The notes under the pieces were generated by a model that made no database searches, had not been told where the DNA came from, and saw only the letters and a list, made by a program, of their open reading frames with translations. From a virus: a stretch of 32,019 bases of DNA. The stretch lies in IMG/VR virus record IMGVR_UViG_3300043395_002173, positions 1 through 32,019 of that record; one strand, 5' to 3'. The position numbers and the translations under genes were made by a program. Below, piece by piece: positions 4,284-18,561 of this stretch. Every line of letters begins with the position of its first letter. The first letter of the stretch is position 1.

Positions 4284-5693
4284 TCACACAATACCTTTAA
4301 TAGCACGCTTAATAGGTCTTCCTTTTACCCAAGGTGTCGCTCTTCCGCCAACCAGTGCCGCATTACCGGCAAAGGTCAAACACAAAGAGTCGGCCAAGTC
4401 CGGTGACCGCATACCGCGTTTCTTCATCGAGTCCTTCGACTCTACCACAATCTTGCCAGAAGACGTAAAACCATAACGCGGGGCCACAAGCTCATGCCGT
4501 AACGCCGACTCAGCGGGGATCTTCACGGTGCGGGTCGCAAGCCAATCCTTGACTGCAAGCCACAGCTCATCGCGCAACTTGTTTGCGTTCGGGTTCATGG
4601 CAGACGCTTCAGCGACATTCACATCCCTGACATTGTACCCCATCTCGCGCAGCCGATCCGCAACCCCAGAGCCAAGACCAATCGTGTCAACGCAGATCTC
4701 GACCGGGTTATCTGTGCGCGCCTCGTTCACCACAGCCCCGACGAGCTGCATCAGATCAAGGCCACCCCATGACTTTACCTCCATCACGACATTACCCTTG
4801 CGCTTGCACAGAGCCGATCTGTCAGTGCCAAACCGCGCAACGTCCAACCCGTACACCATGCCGTCTGACACATCAGCCGTGACATCACGCGACATGGCTG
4901 CATCGACCAACTCTGCCGCAATAAGCGTATCATTATCGGCAACGGCAAACTCACCGAGAACGCGTATCCGATACGCATTAGACCCCTCGCCATAGGTTGC
5001 CTTGATCTGCTCAACGAAGTCGCGCGACACCAATGGAATATTGAGACACGAGACGTGCATCGTGTCCCAGTCAGAGGCCAGCTCATGGTGCGTCCGGTAA
5101 AACAACCCGCTATTACGCGTCGGATTCCCGATCAGGATCGTACACGCGCTGTGACCAGACATAGACCCTGCTGCTGCCTCAAACACAGCTTCAGGCACAG
5201 CTGATGCCTCGTCCACAATCAGCAACACATTCTCCGAGTGAATACCGGCAAGTGCTTCCGGTCGCTCTGAGGACGAGGTGCGTGCTGATGCAAAGCTCGA
5301 CTCCGGTGCAGCCTTCAACGAGATGCGGTCACTCAGCACATCAAATGAGTCGCGCAGTACTGGCGGCAACTTGTTCACCTGCGCCTTCAACTCAGAGAAG
5401 AGCGCATCGAACAGCTGCCCCGCAGTCGGCGCAGTCATCACGGCTTTCTGTGGGAACCGCGTACACATGACCCAGACAATAGCCCACGCGCACACAGTGG
5501 ATTTGCCAACGCCATGACCGGCACGCACAGAGATACGCCGCTTACCGGAAGCGATTTTCTGCAACAGCTTCTCTTGCCACGGCAATGGCGACTGGCCCAG
5601 CACATTACGGACAAATTTGACCGGATCACCGCGATACAGCGCAATGAAATCGTCGAACTCTTTACCGTCTGCCTTGACCTGCTTCGCCATCAT
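4284..5693 (-). CDS. Terminase large subunit (TerL)
   Basis: 469 residues with ATPase and nuclease domains in the usual order. The Walker A motif is AGHGVGKST (58-66). A TAPTAGQ coupling segment is near 88-94. Walker B is VLLIVDEA (156-163) with catalytic Glu162. A C-motif-like IGNPTRNSG is at 188-196. The RNase-H-like nuclease domain shows acidic residues at D284 (YGLDVARFG), D336 (CVDTIGLGSG) and D432/D435 (RSPDLADSL). This enzyme pumps DNA through the portal and cuts the concatemer. Two ATGs are adjacent; the first overlaps the stop of the upstream 43-residue gene (TAATG). The small subunit is not adjacent but about 3.1 kb upstream of it. Terminase type (headful or cos) cannot be decided from the protein alone. 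Confidence 0.95.
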   Translation of the reverse strand: MMAKQVKADGKEFDDFIALYRGDPVKFVRNVLGQSPLPWQEKLLQKIASGKRRISVRAGHGVGKSTVCAWAIVWVMCTRFPQKAVMTAPTAGQLFDALFSELKAQVNKLPPVLRDSFDVLSDRISLKAAPESSFASARTSSSERPEALAGIHSENVLLIVDEASAVPEAVFEAAAGSMSGHSACTILIGNPTRNSGLFYRTHHELASDWDTMHVSCLNIPLVSRDFVEQIKATYGEGSNAYRIRVLGEFAVADNDTLIAAELVDAAMSRDVTADVSDGMVYGLDVARFGTDRSALCKRKGNVVMEVKSWGGLDLMQLVGAVVNEARTDNPVEICVDTIGLGSGVADRLREMGYNVRDVNVAEASAMNPNANKLRDELWLAVKDWLATRTVKIPAESALRHELVAPRYGFTSSGKIVVESKDSMKKRGMRSPDLADSLCLTFAGNAALVGGRATPWVKGRPIKRAIKGIV

Positions 5694-7757: not shown

Positions 7758-7966
7758 CACTGTTTCTCCGTAAGAGCAGCACGGGCTAAATCAACAAAAT
7801 TATTCAACAAGCCAAGCGTCTCACCCTCATCAGGGGGGCCATAACCAATCGCGTGCAACGCTTTTCGCAATCGCTCAATCTCAGTAATTCCTCGATCTAA
7901 AGCGAATATCGCATCTGGGTCATTCGTTTTATCCAACGCCCTTTGCATCAGCTCAATAATACCCAT
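7757..7966 (-). CDS. Small helical hypothetical protein
   Basis: 69 residues from ATG at 7966 (MGIIELMQRALDKTNDPDAIFALDRGITEIERLRKALH). The start overlaps the serine recombinase stop (GGTGATGG). The layout ITEIERLRKALHAI, then a short linker, then LARAALTEKQ resembles the 96-residue protein at 6402-6692, so the two may be distant copies. Function unknown. Confidence 0.6.
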   Translation of the reverse strand: MGIIELMQRALDKTNDPDAIFALDRGITEIERLRKALHAIGYGPPDEGETLGLLNNFVDLARAALTEKQ

Positions 7967-8520
7967 CACCCTATCTCCCTCTCCATAACGCGATACACGC
8001 TGGACCGCGCGATCTTCAGCTGCCGCGCCACTTCAGCCGTGTTCATCCCCGTCTCCATCAGCGCAACTATATCATCACGCTTCGCCTGCGCCGTGGGCTT
8101 CCTGCCCTTGTATTTCCCATCAGCCTTCGCCTTCTGGATACCCTCACGCTGACGCTCCAACATGATCTCGCGCTCAAACTGCGCAACAGCACCAATCATA
8201 TTCAGCATCAGCTTGCCTGTCGGTGTGTGCGTATCGAGATTCATCGCCAGAATACGCAGGCTCGCGCCGCGCCGCTCTATCTCAGCCACGAGCATCACCA
8301 AATCAGCAACACTACGAGCAAGCCGGTCGAGCTTTGTCACGACAAGCACATCGCCATCGCGCAAGTACTGGATCGCCTCGTCGAGCTTGTCACGACGCGC
8401 CACAGATGACACTTGCTCGTCAAAGATGCGCTCGCACCCTGCCGCGGCAAGGTCACGCTTCTGCGCATCGAGGCCCGCGTGCTGGTCATTGGTGGAAGTT
8501 CTGGCATACCCTATAAGCAT
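7966..8520 (-). CDS. Serine recombinase (resolvase/invertase type)
   Basis: 184 residues from ATG at 8520, preceded by CACGGAGATG with GGAG 8 bases away. A longer upstream frame gives only Pro/Cys-rich sequence and is rejected. The catalytic domain shows YARTST with nucleophile Ser9, the TKLDRLARS motif with Arg66 and Arg69, and the long E helix to about 125. The C-terminal 40 residues (KRDDIVALMETGMNTAEVARQLKIARSSVYR) are the helix-turn-helix. Size matches Tn3 resolvase/Gin/Hin-type small serine recombinases, not large phage integrases. It could resolve genome multimers, invert a segment, or be a leftover from a mobile element. No inverted fibre cassette is obvious beside it. First gene of the leftward packaging operon. 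Confidence 0.92.
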   Translation of the reverse strand: MLIGYARTSTNDQHAGLDAQKRDLAAAGCERIFDEQVSSVARRDKLDEAIQYLRDGDVLVVTKLDRLARSVADLVMLVAEIERRGASLRILAMNLDTHTPTGKLMLNMIGAVAQFEREIMLERQREGIQKAKADGKYKGRKPTAQAKRDDIVALMETGMNTAEVARQLKIARSSVYRVMEREIG

Positions 8521-8738
8521 AGCTGCATCTCCGTGTTGCGGTGCTGGATTTTCGGGGGCGGGTTGGCAGCAGCAGGCGCACCCCCCAGGGGGTGGAGACG
8601 GGGGGGGGTCTTGCGGTTTCACGGTCGCCCGATCCGCCTTCCCGCTTCGCGTCGCCGCGTCGCGCCTTCCCGTCTCGTGTTTCGCTGCCAGTGTTTCCCG
8701 ATCCGCTTCTCCGTGTCCCGTTGTTGTCTTAGACGTTG
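8521..8738. other. GC-rich leader with G/C tracts, no gene seen
   Basis: Between the recombinase start and the promoter region nothing codes convincingly. The piece at 8579-8608 contains CACCCCC and GGGGGTG as a 7-bp inverted repeat with a 2-base spacer, followed by a run of nine G. This would be part of a 5' leader if transcription begins near 8780. It could fold into a stable hairpin or a G-quadruplex-type structure, but no family of regulatory RNA is recognised. Confidence 0.4.
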
Positions 8739-8783
8739 TGCGACATGTGTCTCAAAATGTCAAACACAATTTCAATGCGACAC
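8739..8783. promoter_or_regulatory. Paired GCGACA operator-like sites
   Basis: TGCGACATGTGTC (8739-8751) contains an imperfect palindrome, and ATGCGACAC (8775-8783) is an exact reverse complement of GTGTCGCAT at 9375-9383 across the small terminase gene. The second copy covers the end of the -10 and start region of the leftward promoter candidate. Position and repetition fit operator sites for a repressor; no binding protein is identified. Confidence 0.45.
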
Positions 8784-8810
8784 TTCTAGCATGTGGATAA
8801 CTATTGTCAA
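8783..8810 (-). promoter_or_regulatory. Leftward promoter candidate with DnaA box in spacer
   Basis: On the minus strand a perfect -35, TTGACA (8810-8805), is followed after 16 bases by TAGAAG (8788-8783) as a 4/6 -10. It points at the serine recombinase and the packaging operon. The spacer holds AGTTATCCACA (8802-8792), which contains a consensus DnaA box. The operator-like GTGTCGCAT begins at the last base of the -10. Strength is inferred from the -35 only. Confidence 0.5.
8792..8802 (-). promoter_or_regulatory. DnaA box (TTATCCACA)
   Basis: AGTTATCCACA on the minus strand includes TTATCCACA, a perfect match to the bacterial DnaA box TTATNCACA. The same 11 bases recur at 17955-17965. Both copies lie inside promoter spacers, and the window encodes a DnaA domain IV protein, so a regulatory role is more likely than chance. 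Confidence 0.6.
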
Positions 8811-8826
8811 TAGGGCAAGCCCTATT
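8809..8826. repeat. Perfect 8-bp inverted repeat at the small terminase stop
   Basis: AATAGGGC and GCCCTATT are separated by two bases and overlap the TAG stop of the small terminase gene (8822-8824) and the -35 of the leftward promoter. It lacks a following T-tract on the minus strand, so it is either a weak terminator or a protein-binding palindrome. Confidence 0.5.
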
Positions 8827-9295
8827 CGGACACGCTTATGACTTCGCCCTCTATCACGTCGCCGACTGGCAAAGCGCGCGCCGTTTCGTTTAAGCGTTTC
8901 AGCGCGTCTAAATGCAATTGGTGCGTATGCGTCACGGCAACGTCAACGCTTTGGCGGTCACCGTATACCTTCGGCAAAAGCCGTGAAGCCGTCCATTTCA
9001 AACCATCAAGCGCAACGCGGGCAACGTCGGGCGGGACTTCCCCTAAAACAACGCGACGCGTCAAATCAGAAATTTCGTCGGCGTGCGCCATTGCCCGTGC
9101 TTCTATCGCGCGGGCGTACTTAAGAGAGAAGCCCTCTCTCTCATTCATCCATTTCCATATTGTGAAGTCCGACGGCATGTCGTCGTCTTTTGACACGCTC
9201 AAAACGGAACGCCCCGCCGCAATGCGGCGACAAATCTCGTCTTCTAGAGCTTCGGACCATATAGAAGGCCGCCCGTTTTTCTTTTTCTCTGCCAT
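8822..9295 (-). CDS. Terminase small subunit (TerS)
   Basis: 157 residues from ATG at 9295, with GCGGGGA just upstream; a TTG six codons earlier is less likely. The N-terminal part GRPSIWSEALEDEICRRIAAGRS, then DDDMPSDFTIWKWMNE and FSLKYARAIEARAMAHADEI, is the helix-turn-helix and oligomerisation layout of Sf6 gp1-like small terminases. A C-terminal tail (GDVIEGEVISVSE) would contact TerL or the portal. TerS selects the viral DNA for packaging. It is unusually placed: about 3.1 kb upstream of TerL, behind its own likely promoter, and separated from TerL by the recombinase and about ten small genes. A DNA-binding protein of another type is possible but less likely. Confidence 0.82.
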   Translation of the reverse strand: MAEKKKNGRPSIWSEALEDEICRRIAAGRSVLSVSKDDDMPSDFTIWKWMNEREGFSLKYARAIEARAMAHADEISDLTRRVVLGEVPPDVARVALDGLKWTASRLLPKVYGDRQSVDVAVTHTHQLHLDALKRLNETARALPVGDVIEGEVISVSE

Positions 9296-9359: not shown

Positions 9360-9388
9360 TTGACGCTTTACAATATGTGTCGCATACA
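9360..9388 (+). promoter_or_regulatory. Rightward promoter candidate with operator-like site
   Basis: TTGACG (9360-9365) is followed after 17 bases by CATACA (9383-9388), a weak -10. TACAAT at 9369-9374 is an alternative -10 without a clear -35. The operator-like GTGTCGCAT (9375-9383) overlaps this promoter, as its reverse complement does at 8.8 kb. It would drive the only rightward gene block in the window. Confidence 0.4.
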
Positions 9389-9404
9389 GGGACACCCTAT
9401 CGGG

Positions 9405-9420
9405 AAACACGGAAACATGG
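9405..9420 (+). repeat. ACACGGAAAC-type leader repeat
   Basis: AAACACGGAAACATGG lies just before the first rightward gene. Related units appear at 9645-9680, 10539-10553, 8527-8537 (minus) and 17863-17889 (minus), always immediately upstream of a start codon. Confidence 0.5.
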
Positions 9421-10480: not shown

Positions 10481-10538
10481 AAAGCCGAAACGCGCCTTGC
10501 GGGGCGCGTCTTGCCGTTAGGCGGCAACTGATGAGGCT

Positions 10539-10553
10539 AACACGGAGATACGG
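10539..10553 (+). repeat. AACACGGAGATACGG leader
   Basis: A member of the recurring leader family, here holding GGAG 11 bases before the ATG at 10558. The first ten bases (AACACGGAGA) are shared exactly with the leaders at 8527-8537 and 17863-17889 on the minus strand; the 8527-8537 copy also shares the following T. Confidence 0.55.
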
Positions 10554-12247: not shown

Positions 12248-12378
12248 CGACAGAACCAGCCGACACCCGAAGCGACATTGTGGGATACCCCTAAAGGGGT
12301 ATACCCCACCCGACATGTCGCCTCGTGTCGTGTCCAGATGCGACAAACTACGCCATGTCGGGCAATGTCGGCTTGTCG
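12248..12378. promoter_or_regulatory. Dense CGACA/TGTCG site cluster (iteron- or operator-like)
   Basis: Ten copies of the pentamer CGACA or its complement TGTCG occur within 131 bases (at 12248, 12261, 12273, 12311, 12316, 12326, 12341, 12356, 12366, 12374), where a random sequence would have about 0.3. Some are spaced 8-13 bases apart. A perfect back-to-back palindrome CGACATGTCG is at 12311-12320. It lies over the end of the primase-helicase gene and in front of the next leftward genes, a position that would fit either a phage replication origin or an operator array. Confidence 0.6.
12281..12308. repeat. Inverted repeat with ATACCCCT arms
   Basis: TGGGATACCCCT and AGGGGTATACCCCA form 8 perfect base pairs around AA and 4 more after a one-base bulge. 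It sits inside the CGACA cluster, 65 bases after the end of the primase-helicase gene end and 90 before the next start. Terminator without T-tract, or a binding palindrome. Confidence 0.6.
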
Positions 12379-14588
12379 GGTTTTTCTGTAACATGTTGAT
12401 GTTGCTCGGTTTTCCACAAAATGTCGCCTTTGGCGGCTATGATTTTCGCCACACTGAGCGACGCAGCCGCTCTTTGATACGCTCTTTCGCTAAATTTGTC
12501 GTCTCCAGCACACAAATGTCGGAAATAGGCTAACCAATCAGCGCGTCTTATACACAGTTTATCTGGCGGTATTCCGGGTATCCCATAGCGCTTTCCGACT
12601 TCTGAGACTGCTAAGTCAAAGGCTTCCAGCGTGAAGATTTCGCTCTCCGTGAGCTGCTTTTTCTGCTTCTTTTTGCTGTGCTGTTTCTCACTGGGTCTAA
12701 GCCCTAGTGATACGATGTTCGGGTCGACTGGGTCGGTGAGAACCTTGACCATTTCGAAGTGAAACTCGATCCCGTCTTCGCTTTCCTTCTGCTTTGTCGT
12801 GGTCAGTTTTCCTGTGAGGTGTTCCCTGTCTTCCTCGTCTGATGTGCGCACGCATTCGAGTTCTGCGTCCACTGCACCGAGTAGCGCTGACGAGCCACGC
12901 ATACCCTTTGACTCGTCCTTACCGGCATGGTGGACGACGAGCACCGTGCAACCGAGCTGCGCGATGAGTTCGCCTATGACGGCTATGAATTGGCTCATGT
13001 CGCTGGAGCTGTTCTCGTCGCCTACGAAGTTGCGCGCCAGTGTATCCACGACGATGAGCGATGGAGAGATGCCGAGTTCGTGGATCTCCTTGATGAGCTC
13101 CTGCATGTCCTCCAACGTCGAGCTGAGATTCAGGCTTCTCTTAATGAAATAGAGAGGCACAGACGGCTCTATCTCATGGGTGATCCTTGACGCGTCCGAG
13201 CGTTTTTTTAAACCTGCTTGGCCTTCCCCTGCAATGTATAAGCATGTCCCTTGCGCGGTCGGCTTACCGAATGCTGGCTGACCCGCGGCGATCATCTGGG
13301 ATAGGTATATGGCGACGAACGACTTGAAGCTTCCTGGCTTGCCGTAGATCGCCGCGAATGCTTTGGCTGGCACGAGATCCTCGATGAGCCACTGGACTGC
13401 TTCATCCTTCAGCTCATCCATCCGCAGAATTTCGATGCGCTTTTTCGGCGCTGGAGATCGCGTATCAGCGTTACCTGTAACGCTTTGCTGTGTTGCTGCC
13501 GCTGTGTCTAACTGGTGACTGCGGATCTCTGACAGTTGCTCTGTGATGCTCTTTTCGCGTGGCTGTATTGACCGGACGGCGGCAGAGTTATCCCCAGAAA
13601 AATTTGCTATCGCGTATAAAGCGAATGGGTCTACCACTTTCTGAGATAGGGGATCATGCGCGCCGTGATGCGAGTAGGTGACCCAGTCGCCACGGTTCCC
13701 CTTGAACAGCATCACTCCTGCTGTGCCGGTCTGACTCGTCGGCGCAAGGTATCGGTATGCGTCGTTCCGCTTATCGTAATGGCTGAAGCGATAGCCCATC
13801 GATGCAAGTTGCGCTCGCATCCATTCAAGACCGTGCTGCTCATTGAATTGCGAGATCGTTGTGCTGTTCTGCGTCGGCAATGCCACTGGCGCGTGCTTGA
13901 TATGATCGATGATCTGATTTTGTTGCTCTGTCTGGCGCTGCCAAGAGATCGCTGTGTCGATGCTGAAGATGTTGCCGTCGAGGTGATCGCGATGGACAAA
14001 GCGTTCCTTCTCCTCGTCCTTGCTGACGCGTGGGAGAAACCACGGCTGAGACCAGCGGTAATTCTCGTTGACGCAGTTCATCCAGATCTGGCGCTTATGC
14101 AGCTCGGCGATAAAGTAATCGACAGCAGCGGTCAGCTCTTCTTGCGACTGCATCTTGCAGGGGATCAGTATTCTGTATTTCCAGAACGAGACCACGCCAT
14201 CAGAACCCCGATTGCTGTGGCTCGTGTGCATGATGTGCGCGATGTTCATGTCTTTCAGCGCGTCGTGTACGGCATGGAATGACGGTGCGCCTGTGAGGAT
14301 CTCGCCAGTCTCTGGATCGATTGAAGAGTCGCCGTCGAGGATGATCAGCTCTGCTGATTGCAGGTTCTCGTCGGCGCGCTTGCAGATCGAGAGATTACCA
14401 CCACGGATAAGGTATGACCCATCCTTTGGGCCGACACGCACATGCTTTAATCTGTCACTGAGTGCAGCGAGTGTGTACACGCGTGGCTTGAGATCTGTGT
14501 CTCTGAAGCCAGCAGCTGCAAAGGCGAGAGACATCTCATAGGTTGCGCTGTTGCCCATCTCTTTTGTTTCTTGTAGTGTTTCGCTCAC
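12348..14588 (-). CDS. Primase-helicase (AEP-like primase fused to RecA-type helicase)
   Basis: 746 residues from GTG at 14588, with GGAG 6 bases upstream. The N-terminal third matches archaeo-eukaryotic primase logic: an hhhDxD motif ILDGD with D85 and D87, a later THSNRG-like block HTSHSNRG (121-128), and FWKYRILIP (135-143). The middle carries a helical linker. From about 390 the RepA/DnaB-type hexameric helicase domain begins: Walker A YGKPGSFKS (415-423), Walker B SLIVVDTLARN (510-520), and the VVHHAGKD sensor. Primer synthesis and unwinding in one chain implies self-sufficient phage replication. The C-terminal 130 residues are charged and hold no recognised domain. A hairpin precedes the gene. 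Strongest replication marker in the window. Confidence 0.88.
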   Translation of the reverse strand: MSETLQETKEMGNSATYEMSLAFAAAGFRDTDLKPRVYTLAALSDRLKHVRVGPKDGSYLIRGGNLSICKRADENLQSAELIILDGDSSIDPETGEILTGAPSFHAVHDALKDMNIAHIMHTSHSNRGSDGVVSFWKYRILIPCKMQSQEELTAAVDYFIAELHKRQIWMNCVNENYRWSQPWFLPRVSKDEEKERFVHRDHLDGNIFSIDTAISWQRQTEQQNQIIDHIKHAPVALPTQNSTTISQFNEQHGLEWMRAQLASMGYRFSHYDKRNDAYRYLAPTSQTGTAGVMLFKGNRGDWVTYSHHGAHDPLSQKVVDPFALYAIANFSGDNSAAVRSIQPREKSITEQLSEIRSHQLDTAAATQQSVTGNADTRSPAPKKRIEILRMDELKDEAVQWLIEDLVPAKAFAAIYGKPGSFKSFVAIYLSQMIAAGQPAFGKPTAQGTCLYIAGEGQAGLKKRSDASRITHEIEPSVPLYFIKRSLNLSSTLEDMQELIKEIHELGISPSLIVVDTLARNFVGDENSSSDMSQFIAVIGELIAQLGCTVLVVHHAGKDESKGMRGSSALLGAVDAELECVRTSDEEDREHLTGKLTTTKQKESEDGIEFHFEMVKVLTDPVDPNIVSLGLRPSEKQHSKKKQKKQLTESEIFTLEAFDLAVSEVGKRYGIPGIPPDKLCIRRADWLAYFRHLCAGDDKFSERAYQRAAASLSVAKIIAAKGDILWKTEQHQHVTEKPDKPTLPDMA

Positions 14589-14640
14589 AACGAACTCCGT
14601 TGGTTTAGGGATTGCCCCTGAAGGTTCCTCCCGAGACTTA

Positions 14641-14676
14641 AACCCCCGTACTGGTTCGGATTCCGGTACGGGGGTT
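14641..14676 (-). terminator. Strong hairpin between SSB-like and primase-helicase genes
   Basis: AACCCCCGTAC (14641-14651) pairs perfectly with GTACGGGGGTT (14666-14676) around a 14-base loop. On the minus strand only UUUAAG follows, so it is a partial terminator or attenuator reducing transcription into the primase-helicase; on the plus strand CTTTTT follows, so it could also end antisense transcription. Confidence 0.65.
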
Positions 14677-14684
14677 CTTTTTAC

Positions 14685-15230
14685 TTAAAACTCTTCGTCA
14701 TCACTCGAAGATGTCGGTGCCGGTGCAGGAGCAGCACTCGCATCTTCTGCTGAGTACCACTTCTCTTTCGGTGCGAGAGTGAAGTCGATCTGCACTGATG
14801 TGCCTTGACCAACCTTAATGGTTTTGACTGCATCGACGCGCAGAGTTGCGAGCTTGCCAGCAGGGATTGCTCCTGCCTTTTTCGCGACATCTGCAACGAA
14901 TTGCGTCCATGCGCGTGAGTTGCCTCTTGCGCTGCGGAATGGCGCATCTCCGAATGATGCGTCCTTCGAGTAGATCGTTACATCTACTCCAGGCTTATGG
15001 TCTGCTGATGGCGGGTTGCCCCATGCACCGTTGACCTCTTGCCAATCAACACCGGCAGCGCCGACCATCAACCAGCCCTGCTTTGCGTTTGCGATGTCGA
15101 GACCGAATAACTTCCCCTTCATGTCTACGGCAGACTTTTCACCATCCGCTGACGAGACAAAGAGAATGCCTGTGCGTGCGTCGAGACGCGCCCACGGTTT
15201 ACCTGATGCTTGCTGTGGAAAGTTCAACAT
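14685..15230 (-). CDS. Single-stranded-DNA-binding-like protein with acidic tip
   Basis: 181 residues from ATG at 15230 with AAGGAG 5 bases upstream. The body is mostly short strands separated by Gly/Asp turns. The C-terminal 24 residues are a low-complexity Ala/Pro/Ser linker ending SSSDDEEF, the acidic-aromatic tip that bacterial and T7-like SSB proteins use to recruit partners. It lies between a RuvC-like resolvase and the primase-helicase, where an SSB is expected. Sequence similarity to a named family is not recognised, so the call rests on tail, size and context. Confidence 0.7.
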   Translation of the reverse strand: MLNFPQQASGKPWARLDARTGILFVSSADGEKSAVDMKGKLFGLDIANAKQGWLMVGAAGVDWQEVNGAWGNPPSADHKPGVDVTIYSKDASFGDAPFRSARGNSRAWTQFVADVAKKAGAIPAGKLATLRVDAVKTIKVGQGTSVQIDFTLAPKEKWYSAEDASAAPAPAPTSSSDDEEF

Positions 15231-15254
15231 TGTTACTCCTTCAGAGTTACTGAT

Positions 15255-15271
15255 AGGTCAGACCGTGACCT
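15255..15271. promoter_or_regulatory. Inverted repeat in the leader of the SSB-like gene
   Basis: AGGTCA and TGACCT are perfect 6-base arms around a 5-base spacer, 25 bases before the SSB-like ATG. A second pair, TGAGAG/CTCTCA, is at 15280-15300 next to the resolvase stop. These could be an operator and a weak hairpin controlling the SSB-like gene. Confidence 0.4.
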
Positions 15272-15300
15272 TACGCGGGTGAGAGTAATTCCCTCTCTCA

Positions 15301-15774
15301 CTAGGGATCTTGTGTTGCGCCGTACCATGCAATGAGCGCGGCATCGCTTCTTCCATTGTCCTTCACCCGAGAAAAGTGTTGGGCAAAAGCTGGGAAAAGC
15401 TCCTGCGCGCGTTGCCGTGATCCGTCTTTTCCTGCACGCATCCCAGATGCCTTCTGCCACTTCTGCGGTGTGACATAAGAGATTGGCAAGCGTAACGCGG
15501 CGATGATTCCTTCGATTGTCCCCACCGATCTCCCGAACTGGAACATGCTGGAGACACCCTGACCCGGCATTGCTCCGACGCGTTCAAGCCAAACGTGATC
15601 CGGTTGAAGCTCTTCGAGATGCCGTGCAACGAGTTGCGCTGCGATCTCGGTCTTCTTCTTTCCGTTGCGCTCGATTGCGTGCGTCGGCATATCTATCACT
15701 GAGATATACCCCCGCTCGATATCGATGACCGCGATGGCTCCGCTCGCACCAGGATCGATGCCGCAAATCTTCAT
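15301..15774 (-). CDS. RuvC-like Holliday-junction resolvase
   Basis: 157 residues. The RNase-H-like acidic residues are in place: D7 in CGIDPGASGA, E64 in VWLERVGAMPGQGVSS, and D139/D144 in KDNGRSDAALIAWYG. The segment MFQFGRSVGTIEG (77-89) is the DNA-contact helix typical of RuvC-family phage resolvases. Length is close to RuvC (about 170). It would cut branched replication or packaging intermediates. Start overlaps the stop of the HTH gene (ATGA). It ends 70 bases before the SSB-like gene. Confidence 0.9.
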   Translation of the reverse strand: MKICGIDPGASGAIAVIDIERGYISVIDMPTHAIERNGKKKTEIAAQLVARHLEELQPDHVWLERVGAMPGQGVSSMFQFGRSVGTIEGIIAALRLPISYVTPQKWQKASGMRAGKDGSRQRAQELFPAFAQHFSRVKDNGRSDAALIAWYGATQDP

Positions 15775-15977
15775 TCTTGCACCGGCACTGGTATCACCAC
15801 GATGGCATAACCAAGAGCATTAGCTATGCGTTCAAGCGTTCCGAATTCCGCTGATCTTGTTCTGCGAGAGATTTGCCACCAGTGCGTAGGTGTCAGCCCT
15901 GCTCTTACTGACAACTCGCGCTGCGACATGCCTGCTGTAACGCGAGCTTGGTCAAGCTCATCGATAATCTTATCCAT
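15771..15977 (-). CDS. Small XRE/Cro-type helix-turn-helix protein
   Basis: 68 residues. The fold is evident from LDQARVTAGMSQRELSVRAG, then LTPTHWWQISRRTRSAEFGTLERIANALGY: five helices with helix 2-3 forming the Cro/CI DNA-reading unit. It lies inside the replication operon, overlapping both neighbours, instead of at a divergent control region. It is a candidate reader of the CGACA motif sites or a toxin-antitoxin-type antidote, but no target is demonstrated. Confidence 0.85.
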   Translation of the reverse strand: MDKIIDELDQARVTAGMSQRELSVRAGLTPTHWWQISRRTRSAEFGTLERIANALGYAIVVIPVPVQE

Positions 15978-16764
15978 AGTTCTGTATCCATGATGGCACT
16001 GACAGCGTCTCTATCTGCGGCGAGTAGCCCTTCCACGCTGTTGCTGATTTCGTTGCCTTATACGCTTCTGCGGCAAGAGCCATCTGATGGCGACCTGCTT
16101 CAAGCGCGACCATATCGAGATTGTATACGCCAATGGCGTACGGCGCTTCTGTCTCCACTGCGATGAAGATGAAATCTTTCGCTTCAAAGTCAGTGGTATG
16201 CATATACCCATCGAGATAATGCGCGGCTTGAACGTAATACTTCAACCCCGCAAGTGTTTTCGCAAATCCATCAGGCGAAGCGTCCTGCGTGGTCTTCAGG
16301 TCAACGATTGTCGATCCCTGTATTGCGTCCATGCGCGCCTTGCATGGCACACCGTTTTGCTCCCACTTAAACGATTGCTCGACGCTCGCGCCTTTCAAGA
16401 GTTCCTTATATAGATGATGCGAACGGACTGCTTCTGCGACGCGCTGCGCACGCTGAAAGTCATCGAAATCGACAACAGTTTTACCCGCGTTCGTCGCCGC
16501 AAAAAGTTCTGCCTGTTGCTTGCCAGCTGATGTGCGCCGGTCAATCTTTGGCATTGCTGCGAAGTCTGTGTCGATTGTCTCTGGCTCCAACACCATTGCA
16601 TGAACGAGTGTACCGAATTTCATTGCAGGTGTTGGCTCGCGCTCATTCTCTTTCGCTGCGAGATAGTGAGCTGGCGATCTGAGTAATTGCTTCGCTCCAG
16701 ACGCTGATAGCGCATCCCACGAATGGTATTCCGTCGCTGGAATATTACTGAGTTGCTGTGGCAT
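15970..16764 (-). CDS. PD-(D/E)XK exonuclease, RecE/exonuclease VIII-like
   Basis: 264 residues. The start MPQQLSNIPATEYHSWDALSASGAKQLLRSPAHYLA is typical of the DUF3799/RecE C-terminal nuclease family. Key points: H55 in FGTLVHAM, the metal site D146 (ARMDAI) and D155-L-K157 (VDLKTT), and a YYVQAAHYLDG helix (176-186) with the conserved Gln and Tyr. This enzyme degrades one strand of duplex DNA to give 3' ends for annealing. No separate annealase (RecT/Redbeta) was recognised, although the SSB-like protein could serve. Overlaps both neighbours. Confidence 0.9.
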   Translation of the reverse strand: MPQQLSNIPATEYHSWDALSASGAKQLLRSPAHYLAAKENEREPTPAMKFGTLVHAMVLEPETIDTDFAAMPKIDRRTSAGKQQAELFAATNAGKTVVDFDDFQRAQRVAEAVRSHHLYKELLKGASVEQSFKWEQNGVPCKARMDAIQGSTIVDLKTTQDASPDGFAKTLAGLKYYVQAAHYLDGYMHTTDFEAKDFIFIAVETEAPYAIGVYNLDMVALEAGRHQMALAAEAYKATKSATAWKGYSPQIETLSVPSWIQNYG

Positions 16765-16954
16765 GGAGTTCTATGTCCTCTGCGTCGTCAGCGACTGCTG
16801 ACAGGGCTGATGTAAGCGTCCAGTGATGTGTAAGATGCCCATCGATTGTCAGCGCGCGGTATTTCTTGTCTCGTGCCATCTGCACCCATCCTGCGACAGC
16901 ATGATCTTTAAGAATAACGTATTCGTTTTCACCGTCTGGTCTAACTTCAACCAT
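16745..16954 (-). CDS. Small hypothetical protein
   Basis: 69 residues from the second of two nearby ATGs (16954), since AGGGGAG is 5 bases upstream; the other ATG at 16960 is almost in contact with that site. The sequence MVEVRPDGENEYVILKDHAV then GWVQMARDKKYRALTIDGHL suggests an antiparallel beta protein with a short helix. It overlaps both neighbours (8 and 20 bases). Not recognised. Confidence 0.6.
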   Translation of the reverse strand: MVEVRPDGENEYVILKDHAVAGWVQMARDKKYRALTIDGHLTHHWTLTSALSAVADDAEDIELHATATQ

Positions 16955-17291
16955 TTCCATCTCCCCTAAGAGCTTCGTTGAGGTTTGCCTGTACCTTTTT
17001 CACTGCGAGATCGAGCACAGCCTGCGGTGCATCTTTGCCTGTAAACTCTGCGCAGAATGCCATATAGTTGATGCCGTCTACCCATGAGTCATGGTGTTCT
17101 GGGCTGTGGGCAAGCCGTGAAAGTTTCACTGCAAGCATTGCTAGCGAGACATCGTATGCCGAGAACTTCTTCCCAGACAGAACGCTGAGTAAAGTCGCAG
17201 CTCGTTCGAAATTCTCTTGCGCAGCGCCGTAAGAGTTACCGCGTTGCGATAGAAGCGACTGCGCTTCTTTGAGTACATCCCTATGGTCCAT
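16947..17291 (-). CDS. DUF6378-like protein
   Basis: 114 residues from ATG at 17291, overlapping the DnaA-like gene's stop (TGATG); the long upstream frame is that gene's shadow. The sequence EAQSLLSQRGNSYGAAQENFERAA, then KFSAYDVSLAMLAVKLSRLAHSPEHHDSWVDGINYMAF, follows the DUF6378 pattern, an all-helical phage family with conserved RGNxYG, DV..mm..KlaR and HxDsw.D blocks. The conserved His/Asp/Glu would suit metal-dependent nucleotide hydrolysis (MazG-like), which is inference. Its place in the replication operon agrees. Confidence 0.8.
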   Translation of the reverse strand: MDHRDVLKEAQSLLSQRGNSYGAAQENFERAATLLSVLSGKKFSAYDVSLAMLAVKLSRLAHSPEHHDSWVDGINYMAFCAEFTGKDAPQAVLDLAVKKVQANLNEALRGDGNG

Positions 17292-17755
17292 CACTGTTTC
17301 CCCAATGCTTTCTCGTATTCCTTCACACCGTAGAGCACACTGGTGTGGTCCTTGTTCAACTTCTGCCCGATCTGGGAAAGACTCATCCCCAGCTCTGTTC
17401 TGAGCCGCCAGTACACTTCTCGGCGACACTTTACCAAAGGCGCTTCTCGCGAGTTGCCAGTAACTGCTTCTGGGTGGATCTTGTGCTTTGCGCATACGTC
17501 CCTCAGAATTTCCTTCCACCGTGCGAGCGGCGAGATGCGAGCAGCACGCAACAACTGATGCGCTTCCGTGAATTGCCGTGCCACGATTGGCGGCAGCGGT
17601 GCGGGTTCTGGCTCGACATGTACCACTTCTGGTACAGGCTCCGGCTCTGGTGCAGGTGGCTCCTCAACCTTGATCTTAACGATGTTGCGTTGCGGTGCAG
17701 CACGCAGTCGCAAGCGCACATCTTTGTAGTGCGAGTTCCAATCAACGCTGGTCAT
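17291..17755 (-). CDS. Stand-alone DnaA domain IV-like DNA-binding protein
   Basis: 154 residues. Residues about 80-150 match DnaA domain IV: ILRDVCAKHKIHPEAVTGNS (83-102), then KCRREVYWRLRTELGMSLSQIGQKL and the signature KDHTSVLYG (135-143), which contacts DnaA boxes. The AAA+ ATPase domain is entirely absent. In its place is an N-terminal 60-residue tail rich in Pro/Glu (PAPEPEPVPEVVHVEPEPAPLPP). It can thus bind DnaA boxes but not form the origin-melting filament. A perfect DnaA box lies in its own operon's promoter candidate (17955-17965) and another at 8792-8802, so self-regulation or competition with host DnaA is plausible. Second gene of the operon. Confidence 0.85.
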   Translation of the reverse strand: MTSVDWNSHYKDVRLRLRAAPQRNIVKIKVEEPPAPEPEPVPEVVHVEPEPAPLPPIVARQFTEAHQLLRAARISPLARWKEILRDVCAKHKIHPEAVTGNSREAPLVKCRREVYWRLRTELGMSLSQIGQKLNKDHTSVLYGVKEYEKALGKQ

Positions 17756-17865
17756 TGCAGGTGTCCATCAACGATATACGCAAGACCAAATACGATAATT
17801 GAGAAAAGAGTTATGGCAAGCAAATTTATGAGCAGCCGTACAACTCTTGGGTCTGGATCTGTCAT
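17752..17865 (-). CDS. Small membrane protein at the head of the replication operon
   Basis: 37 residues from ATG at 17865, read by hand: MTDPDPRVVRLLINLLAITL then FSIIVFGLAYIVDGHLQ. One transmembrane helix spans about residues 11-31. The leader is AACACGGAGACACGGAAAC, a member of the repeat family. Its stop overlaps the next start (ATGA). It is the first gene after the promoter, which for phages often means an early host-takeover or exclusion role, but this is inference. Confidence 0.65.
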   Translation of the reverse strand: MTDPDPRVVRLLINLLAITLFSIIVFGLAYIVDGHLQ

Positions 17866-17889
17866 GTTTCCGTGTCTCCGTGTTTCTCA
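17863..17889 (-). repeat. ACACGGAGACACGGAAAC leader
   Basis: On the minus strand the sequence GAGAAACACGGAGACACGG precedes AAACATG, combining the two versions of the leader repeat (ACACGGAGA and ACACGGAAAC) found at the rightward genes. Confidence 0.55.
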
Positions 17890-17940
17890 GCCCATCGCTG
17901 ATTTGCTCACCCTATCTGACTAATACGATAGACACAAGCC

Positions 17941-17968
17941 ATATTATTATTTCCTGTGGATAACTCAA
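17941..17968 (-). promoter_or_regulatory. Leftward promoter candidate of the replication operon
   Basis: On the minus strand TTGAGT (17968-17963) is followed after 16 bases by TAATAT (17946-17941). The spacer holds the DnaA box TTATCCACA, in nearly the same position as at the 8.8 kb promoter. The -35 overlaps the T-tract of the terminator just upstream, so the end of the late genes and the start of the replication operon are back to back. Confidence 0.5.
17955..17965 (-). promoter_or_regulatory. DnaA box (TTATCCACA) in replication-operon promoter
   Basis: AGTTATCCACA on the minus strand is identical over 11 bases to the copy at 8792-8802 and contains a consensus DnaA box. It sits 90 bases upstream of the operon that encodes the DnaA domain IV protein. 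Confidence 0.65.
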
Positions 17969-18009
17969 AAAAAAGTTGGCCCCCATGCCTGATGGGAGAC
18001 ACGGGGGCC
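17967..18009 (-). terminator. Rho-independent terminator of the late genes
   Basis: On the minus strand GGCCCCC (18009-18003) pairs with GGGGGCC (17984-17978) and is followed by AAC and eight T. A second hairpin, CTGCCC/GGGCAG, is at 18012-18033. This ends the late transcript after the HNH gene. Confidence 0.85.
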
Positions 18010-18072
18010 GTCTGCCCAGGGGAGGTCGGGCAGTGCGGAGCAAGCTCAACGCATTGAAATAGTATCAGTTTT

Positions 18073-18561
18073 TCACTTTGGGAGAAACCGCTTGCCGGTT
18101 ACATGTGACCACGTCTTGCCGAGTTTGATCTGGCTGATGCTCGACTTGTGTAACCCATAGGTCTTAGTGATTTGGCTATACGGTCGCTCATCGAGGAAGA
18201 TTTTCTTAGCTATCGCAGCTGTGATTTTCGACTGGCCGTTACCTTCACCCTTGGCAGACCGATTGCGCAACACGCGATCCATCACGTTGTCGGCTGTTGT
18301 TCCAGTCTGTAGGTGATACGGATTAACGCAGAGCGGAGTATCGCATCGATGTCGCACGACAAGCGTTGGCGGTATTGGTCCGTGGAATACCTCATACGAG
18401 AAACGATGAGCGCGAATCGATTTCCCGTTGATCGAGAAAGTGCCATACCCATCGGCGGTAGGCACTGTCCCGTTAATCAGCCAGCAGTCATCTCTTTTTC
18501 CTACATCGACCTTCGAATAGAAGCGCGCAATGTCGAGTATGTCGTACTTATGCTTAATCAA
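18073..18561 (-). CDS. HNH homing-type endonuclease with C-terminal HTH (TTG start)
   Basis: 162 residues. No ATG or GTG fits; a TTG at 18561, four bases after the upstream stop, is the only reasonable start. HNH motif: VVRHRCDTPLCVNPYHLQTGTTADNVMD (HNH_3 type), where the first His, the central NPYHL and the last Asn form the catalytic pocket, with CDTPLC a zinc knuckle. The N-terminal GYGTFSINGKSIRAHRFSYEVFHG block is usual for this family. The C-terminal SKITAAIAKKIFLDERPYSQITKTYGLHKSSISQI is a DNA-binding HTH. Free-standing homing endonucleases spread between phage genomes. It is last in the late operon. Confidence 0.85.
   Translation of the reverse strand: MIKHKYDILDIARFYSKVDVGKRDDCWLINGTVPTADGYGTFSINGKSIRAHRFSYEVFHGPIPPTLVVRHRCDTPLCVNPYHLQTGTTADNVMDRVLRNRSAKGEGNGQSKITAAIAKKIFLDERPYSQITKTYGLHKSSISQIKLGKTWSHVTGKRFLPK

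Follow-up and report, generated by a model that had tools for sequence, protein, structure and literature searches.

Two conserved DnaA boxes, a replication operon and a res-like site in a phage encoding a motor-less DnaA domain IV protein

The window, a 32,019-nt IMG/VR virus contig (IMGVR_UViG_3300043395_002173, positions 1 to 32,019), contains two exact and conserved DnaA boxes, and it encodes a stand-alone DnaA domain IV protein, termed here DnaA-IV. One box is located upstream of the promoter of a replication operon. The other is located between sites I and II of a res-like site that adjoins a serine recombinase gene. The reading that we favor, tentatively and with somewhat less than even confidence, is that a DnaA-type protein, from the phage and/or its host, binds both sites and regulates the replication operon as well as the resolvase and its res site.

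A DnaA domain IV protein without a motor domain

The 154-residue phage protein (17291–17755, minus strand) is DnaA domain IV without the motor domain, an assignment made by Pfam, a PDB profile search and an AlphaFold model. Residues 82–145 match PF08299 (Bac_DnaA_C) with an E-value of 7e-12 and 45.6 bits, against a curated cut-off of 31.5, and Pfam finds neither an AAA+ domain III nor any other match, domain I included, in the 154 residues. The initial annotation had described a 154-residue open reading frame with the signature KDHTSVLYG and domain IV but no AAA+ domain, and the ORF list and the Pfam matches bear this out. It had also described a Pro/Glu-rich tail, which is wrong, since the Pro/Glu-rich part is a linker that precedes domain IV (about residues 31–55). 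The protein thus begins with a W..HYK.VR.RL motif, continues through this linker and ends in the DnaA-box-binding domain (residues 82–147). The N-terminal motif is also present in the distant members L091 and MW202711.

A PDB search with a profile of ten DnaA-IV relatives returns DnaA chains only (3pvp, 8btg, 1j1v and others); phmmer with the single DnaA-IV sequence returns zero matches in the PDB. The single-sequence AlphaFold model is of poor quality, and the nine-sequence model is moderate (domain pLDDT about 71–85) and good for fold recognition only. The best PDB matches of the model are all DnaA, including 3pvp, 1j1v and 8btg, at ~2 Å over ~75 columns for isolated DNA-binding domains. Five residues that are invariant among the DnaA-IV relatives, R103, R111, D136, H137 and T138, align with R399, R407, D433, H434 and T435 of E. 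coli DnaA. The position of E. coli P423 is occupied by Ser. As the aligned DnaA residues are kept, the protein is predicted to bind DnaA boxes.

Box occurrence in the window and its relatives

The 11-mer AGTTATCCACA occurs exactly only twice in the whole 32,019-nt window, at 8792–8802 and 17955–17965, both on the minus strand. Both occurrences, which the initial annotation had already reported, are intergenic and conserved; by the gene list, only 4519 of the 32,019 bases are non-coding. A scan with the consensus TTATNCACA adds one match, TTATACACA at 12548–12556 (plus strand), within the primase-helicase gene. Shuffling the window yields 0.19 exact copies of TTATCCACA on average and at least two copies in 3 of 300 shuffles (1%). 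Conservation across relatives is stronger evidence for the boxes than the bare count.

The two longest relatives, G003 (38.8 kb) and G017 (37.8 kb), contain exactly two TTATNCACA sites each, at the orthologous places, and no other TTATCCACA beyond these. The promoter box is also kept in G018, which has TTATCAACA at the place of the second box, and in G022, which has TTTTCCACA there and one TTATGCACA elsewhere. The DnaA-IV gene and the promoter box are both present in all four near-complete relatives. The two intergenic TTATNCACA boxes of the window are conserved beyond their surroundings, as the alignments of each locus described below illustrate.

Box 1, its promoter and the replication operon

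Box 1 (17955–17965, minus strand) is found in all 19 records of the clade. It is part of an invariant 13-mer, AGTTATCCACAGG, which extends to 17953 and lies 206–216 bp upstream of the DnaA-IV gene in these records. The 13-mer is unchanged across 14 distinct upstream regions with a mean identity of 0.80 and a minimum of 0.63, and it stays intact among relatives in which the DNA that follows it has been replaced.

Alignment identifies a conserved putative promoter for the DnaA-IV and replication operon at 17909–17937 (minus strand), consisting of TTGTGT (17937–17932), a 17-bp spacer and TAGGGT (17914–17909). The form TTGNNN-N16/17-TANGGT is retained in relatives whose remaining sequence has turned over, and it is followed by an invariant ribosome-binding region, CACGGAGACACGGA. 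The distance from box 1 to the conserved -35 element is 17 nt in all records but L149, where it is 10 nt. A different promoter proposed in the initial annotation, TTGAGT-16-TAATAT (8/12), is present in the window and fails a consensus promoter scan; its -35 becomes TCGAGT, TAGAGT, TCTAGT or CAAAGT in relatives with the box intact.

Between the conserved promoter and DnaA-IV lies an ORF for a small predicted membrane peptide (MTDPDPRVVRLLINLLAITLFSIIVFGLAYIVDGHLQ; 17758–17866, minus strand), whose reading frame is conserved in the alignment. DnaA-IV then heads the replication operon (12348–17755, minus strand), which is defined by gene calls and Pfam and whose unity we infer from gene orientation. 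The operon also comprises genes for DUF6378, an exonuclease VIII-like protein, an HTH protein, a RuvC-like resolvase, an SSB-like protein with an acidic tail, and the primase-helicase.

Several other features are found in and around this region. The spacer of the 17909–17937 promoter contains an inverted repeat, CTATC..GATAG, with CGTATA..TATACG or CATATA..TATATG at the L007 and L142 equivalents. This repeat turns over and covaries between clades, and it is perhaps a candidate repressor operator within an early promoter. Directly before box 1, positions 18065–17965 (minus strand) contain what is probably the gene of a small RNA, about 85 nt long, with an extended -10 (TGATACTAT / TGCTATAAT), a hairpin and then a strong terminator. 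The hairpin has an invariant CCTCCC loop, similar to that of alphaproteobacterial anti-Shine-Dalgarno RNAs, and a compensated stem (CTGCCC..GGGCAG / CTGCTC..GAGCAG), with double changes at 6 of 31 predicted pairs. Elsewhere in the window, a sub-threshold match to the alphaproteobacterial suhB/mmgR RNA (14608–14689, plus strand; 25.7 bits against a gathering threshold of 41) ends in a strong terminator, and a similar match occurs in relative L025 (1886–1967, minus strand; 25.4 bits). A match to the type II hammerhead ribozyme (10483–10545, plus strand; 36.4 bits, gathering threshold 37, E 5e-4) is located just upstream of a small ORF and is not found at the loci of four relatives.

Box 2 within a res-like site

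The gene downstream of box 2 encodes a small serine recombinase of the gamma-delta/Gin type (7966–8517, minus strand, ATG start), which matches PF00239 with an E-value of 3.4e-42 and contains HTH_7. Its PDB matches are gamma-delta and Tn3 resolvase and Gin-type invertases. A GTG-started version of the same ORF, with 218 aa, is probably too long.

The interval between terS and the recombinase gene contains six similar half-sites (consensus TGTCCCAATAGG) that form three inverted pairs. Site I (8803–8832, minus strand; 28–30 bp) overlaps the 3′ end of terS and was delimited by half-site alignment and by a leave-one-genome-out scan, in which the matrix is built without the genome being scanned. 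Site II (8748–8782, minus strand; 35 bp), with inverted half-sites TGTCGCATTGAA / TGTCTCAAAATG, is the best match of the 32-kb scan, and site III (8714–8745, minus strand; 32 bp), with TGTCGCACAACG / TGTCCCGTTGTT, joins sites I and II among the four best; all three rank high in relatives too. Across 11 genomes, the six half-sites score 84–108 for similarity to one another, compared to 45 ± 6 in random sets, a level reached by 0 of 20,000 random draws in each of the 11. When the res geometry is slid along the whole window, the single best score falls exactly at this locus. The central TT of site I is invariant, which is what would be expected of a crossover site.

Judged from sequence, the anatomy at box 2 is that of a Tn3-type res: three inverted dimer sites beside a resolvase gene, with a conserved central dinucleotide. 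Resolvase would be expected to bind and recombine at this res-like site. A Gin/Hin-type invertase with two inverted crossover sites was also considered and rejected, as one site alone has the TT core within the 32-kb contig. A further single site that is conserved, at 9407–9378, has a variable center that does not match. This fourth resolvase-type site (9378–9407, minus strand; 30 bp), the second-best match in the window, lies in the divergent region upstream of terS and is found in the scanned relatives, conserved at 30 bp. Because its central dinucleotide varies, it is probably regulatory, which suggests that the resolvase may also regulate terS and the divergent promoters.

Box 2 itself (8792–8802, minus strand) occupies the 22-bp spacer between sites I and II. 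Comparison of 13 distinct sequences finds the box exact in nine and with one mismatch in four. Its columns are 77–100% conserved, seven of nine at 100%, and most of the neighboring spacer columns are at 31–77%. The spacer measures 22 bp in 10 of these sequences and 21 bp in 3, and a gap of 2 to 5 bp separates the 28-bp site I from the start of the box, so that the box slides 3 bp inside a spacer fixed at 21–22 bp.

Alignment also identifies a conserved putative resolvase promoter (8735–8763, minus strand) that overlaps sites II and III, with TTGACA (8763–8758), a spacing of 17 and CACAAC (8740–8735). The form TTGACR-17-NAYAAN is retained in most relatives, 27–29 nt after box 2, and the -10 is weak in the window itself. 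The promoter first proposed for this box, TTGACA-16-TAGAAG (10/12 without its final T), fails the consensus promoter scan; its TTGACA coincides with the right half-site of resolvase site I and is replaced by GTGCGA, TTGGGA or other hexamers in relatives.

The idea that the boxes lie inside the spacers of leftward promoters therefore does not hold at either locus. The hexamers on which it was based are unconserved, and the conserved promoters start 17 and 27–29 nt beyond the boxes. The genome-wide scan that the initial annotation had proposed finds exact AGTTATCCACA at two intergenic places only, neither of them within a conserved promoter spacer. The res-like site around box 2 had been overlooked.

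Relatives outside the clade and the host

One sequence outside the clade, the 92-kb contig G026 (L037, about 8008–8130), encodes a recombinase with 55% identity and carries a module of box plus site I, TAGGGCTTGCCCTATTGGAAAGTTATCCACA. Within the module, the relative orientation of box and site I is the same and the spacing is similar. The module as a whole has the opposite orientation with regard to sites II and III and the resolvase gene, which places the box on the outer side. G026 has no PF08299 match and so no DnaA-IV. This single case suggests that box 2 goes with the crossover site and may be readable by host DnaA.

No exact box was found upstream of the nine other distant recombinases inspected, and in distant phages (MW202711, G032 and others) the DnaA-IV gene has no consensus box upstream of it. 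A viral scan with TGTGGATAAN{10,18}CAAGSYCTA returned 82 stretches, which have resolvase neighbors only in this clade and G026. In genome contigs searched for a named host, the pattern scan gave apparent chance matches, with a resolvase ORF at none of the checked loci, and the protein scan gave no relative. The distant relatives G032 and G033 (L119 1501 / L101 796) have TTATCCACA reversed, between the exonuclease and RuvC genes, where it adjoins TTGCGTCTAGCRCGCAAGGCRTT, a motif found upstream of the G032 DnaA-IV gene as well. The terminase large subunit of the window (4284–5693) is 68–75% identical to those of two Manatee Spring phages and Sinorhizobium phage phiM5, which points to an alphaproteobacterial host.

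Comparison with known systems

The DnaA initiator shares with the phage protein the C-terminal box-binding fold, an RDHT-type signature and the consensus box TTATNCACA. In contrast to full-length DnaA, DnaA-IV is without the AAA+ domain III and without a domain I match; in their place it has the short W..HYK.VR.RL motif and the Pro/Glu linker. Motor-less DnaA proteins have a scattered distribution across phage genomes. PHROG 27829 ("DnaA-like replication initiation protein") and the annotated phage DnaA-HTH proteins (MW202711, MW202483, MW202496 and that of Microcystis phage Mae-JY35) are also stand-alone DnaA C-terminal domains, but in all of these distant members, unlike in the window phage, the gene lacks an upstream consensus box. 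DnaA can both activate and repress, and it promotes transcription of phage lambda ori, likewise a case in which DnaA controls the replication promoter of a phage (PMC8203912). The window phage differs from lambda in its single perfect box upstream of the -35 and its second box in res, and lambda is not known to encode a DnaA domain.

The res-like site has in common with Tn3/gamma-delta res a small serine recombinase and three inverted dimer sites, and the I–II spacer of Tn3 res is also 22 bp. The window differs in the conserved DnaA box that fills this spacer and in the fourth site upstream of terS. The res-like site totals about 119 bp, and the complete Tn3 res 114 bp (PMC9943657). In Sin res, HU binds between sites I and II and can be replaced by IHF (PMC2428073, PMC9943657), and a site for a host-type DNA-binding protein is thus likewise placed between sites I and II. 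Sin, however, has non-specific HU and two sites, while the window has a sequence-specific DnaA box and three recombinase sites.

A proposed common control of the two boxes, and other readings

Under the favored reading, the two high-affinity DnaA boxes would be phage control elements, with the motor-less DnaA-IV encoded near the start of the replication operon. As the conserved promoters lie downstream of the boxes, both boxes can be regarded as upstream elements, centered roughly at -57 (box 1) and -68 (box 2) from the starts expected from the hexamer positions, which would fall some 7 nt past TAGGGT and CACAAC. Box 1 is just upstream of the operon promoter, so a DnaA-type protein bound there could set the transcription of the replication genes, including that of DnaA-IV itself (autoregulation). 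Box 2 precedes the resolvase promoter and is flanked by crossover site I and accessory site II, so that binding of the same protein to it could govern how much resolvase is made and/or how accessible site I is. Replication and multimer resolution, with the packaging genes downstream, would then answer to one signal, the balance between phage DnaA-IV and host DnaA. In vivo binding by DnaA-IV and/or host DnaA is inferred, as is recombination at the res-like site, and the bound protein might either activate or repress. Helical phasing was considered as proof of activation and set aside: the spacings of 17 and about 28 nt are 11 bp apart, and L149 breaks the pattern. A class-I-type activator site would keep the box on one helical face upstream of its promoter; with box-to--35 distances of 10 nt (L149), 17 nt and 27–29 nt, phasing is non-uniform.

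The initial annotation had proposed the phage protein as a promoter regulator. Two near-exclusive conserved boxes upstream of two transcription units agree with such regulation, but its link to the phage protein may not be a necessary one. Besides the unequal distances, three findings count against the favored reading, namely the mismatched box 2 in 4 of 13 sequences, the distant DnaA-IV phages that are boxless at the gene, and G026, with box and site I but no DnaA-IV. The last two suggest that host DnaA may be the binder. A stronger version, in which the DnaA box is a working part of res and DnaA or DnaA-IV beside site I both gates resolution and controls the replication operon, seems to us rather doubtful.

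It is possible that host DnaA alone reads the boxes and makes phage transcription and resolution depend on the replication state of the host, with DnaA-IV acting elsewhere (e.g., at host oriC) or as an antagonist. This combination would account for the boxless distant phages and for the module retained by G026 without a PF08299 match, and host DnaA controls lambda ori transcription (PMC8203912). We nonetheless consider it unlikely, if a serious contender, given that every near-complete clade genome with boxes encodes DnaA-IV and that G026 is a single case. An architectural role for box 2, in which a DnaA-type protein bends the I–II spacer like HU in Sin and resolution requires bound DnaA or DnaA-IV, is compatible with the favored reading of box 1. 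The spacer stays at 21–22 bp while the sequence around the box changes, HU occupies the I–II spacer in Sin and IHF can substitute for it (PMC2428073, PMC9943657), and box and site I co-occur, even inverted, in G026. However, the sliding of the box by 3 bp argues against a rigid architectural role, as IHF in Sin needs an exact center, and the three-site Tn3-type res binds no architectural protein (PMC2428073). With the G026 box outside the I–II interval and box 1 left unexplained, we regard this role as improbable.

Box 1 and its AT-rich 3′ flank could instead form a replication origin, with a single R1-like box and an unwinding element, bound by DnaA-IV or host DnaA. The GTTATCCACAGG at box 1 is similar to the R1 core of E. 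coli oriC, which has AT-rich DNA on the same side; ATATAAAAAAATATAT comes after box 1 in many relatives, and the DnaA-IV gene heads the replication operon. An oriC-type origin has several clustered DnaA boxes next to an AT-rich element, but here the box is single, with no second one at 2 or fewer mismatches in 17750–18300. The AT-rich stretch coincides with the spacer of the conserved promoter-like sequence, L149 lacks it, there is no clear GC-skew turn at box 1, and box 2 is left unexplained, all of which make an origin quite improbable. Finally, the boxes might be chance matches inherited without function, since two exact matches occur in as many as 1% of shuffled windows and the bare count is not overwhelming. 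Set against the 13 bp invariant at box 1 and the selective conservation of box 2, in relatives down to 63% identity, this explanation is hardly credible and appears already largely refuted.

Novelty and implications

Phages with stand-alone DnaA domain IV proteins are already known, as are phage promoters under the control of DnaA. The placement of a DnaA box within res appears to be new: we are aware of no other example, and of 5.39 million open-access papers searched in full text, a single one, a plasmid genome description, mentions a resolvase, a res site and a DnaA box together. We also know of no established role for motor-less DnaA proteins. With two discrete conserved candidate targets per genome in one lineage, the role of DnaA-IV becomes directly testable. 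The DnaA box in res, if true, would connect the control of replication with site-specific resolution in a way that is, to our knowledge, new, and the paired boxes suggest that one control may act over both the replication of phage DNA and the separation of joined DNA circles.
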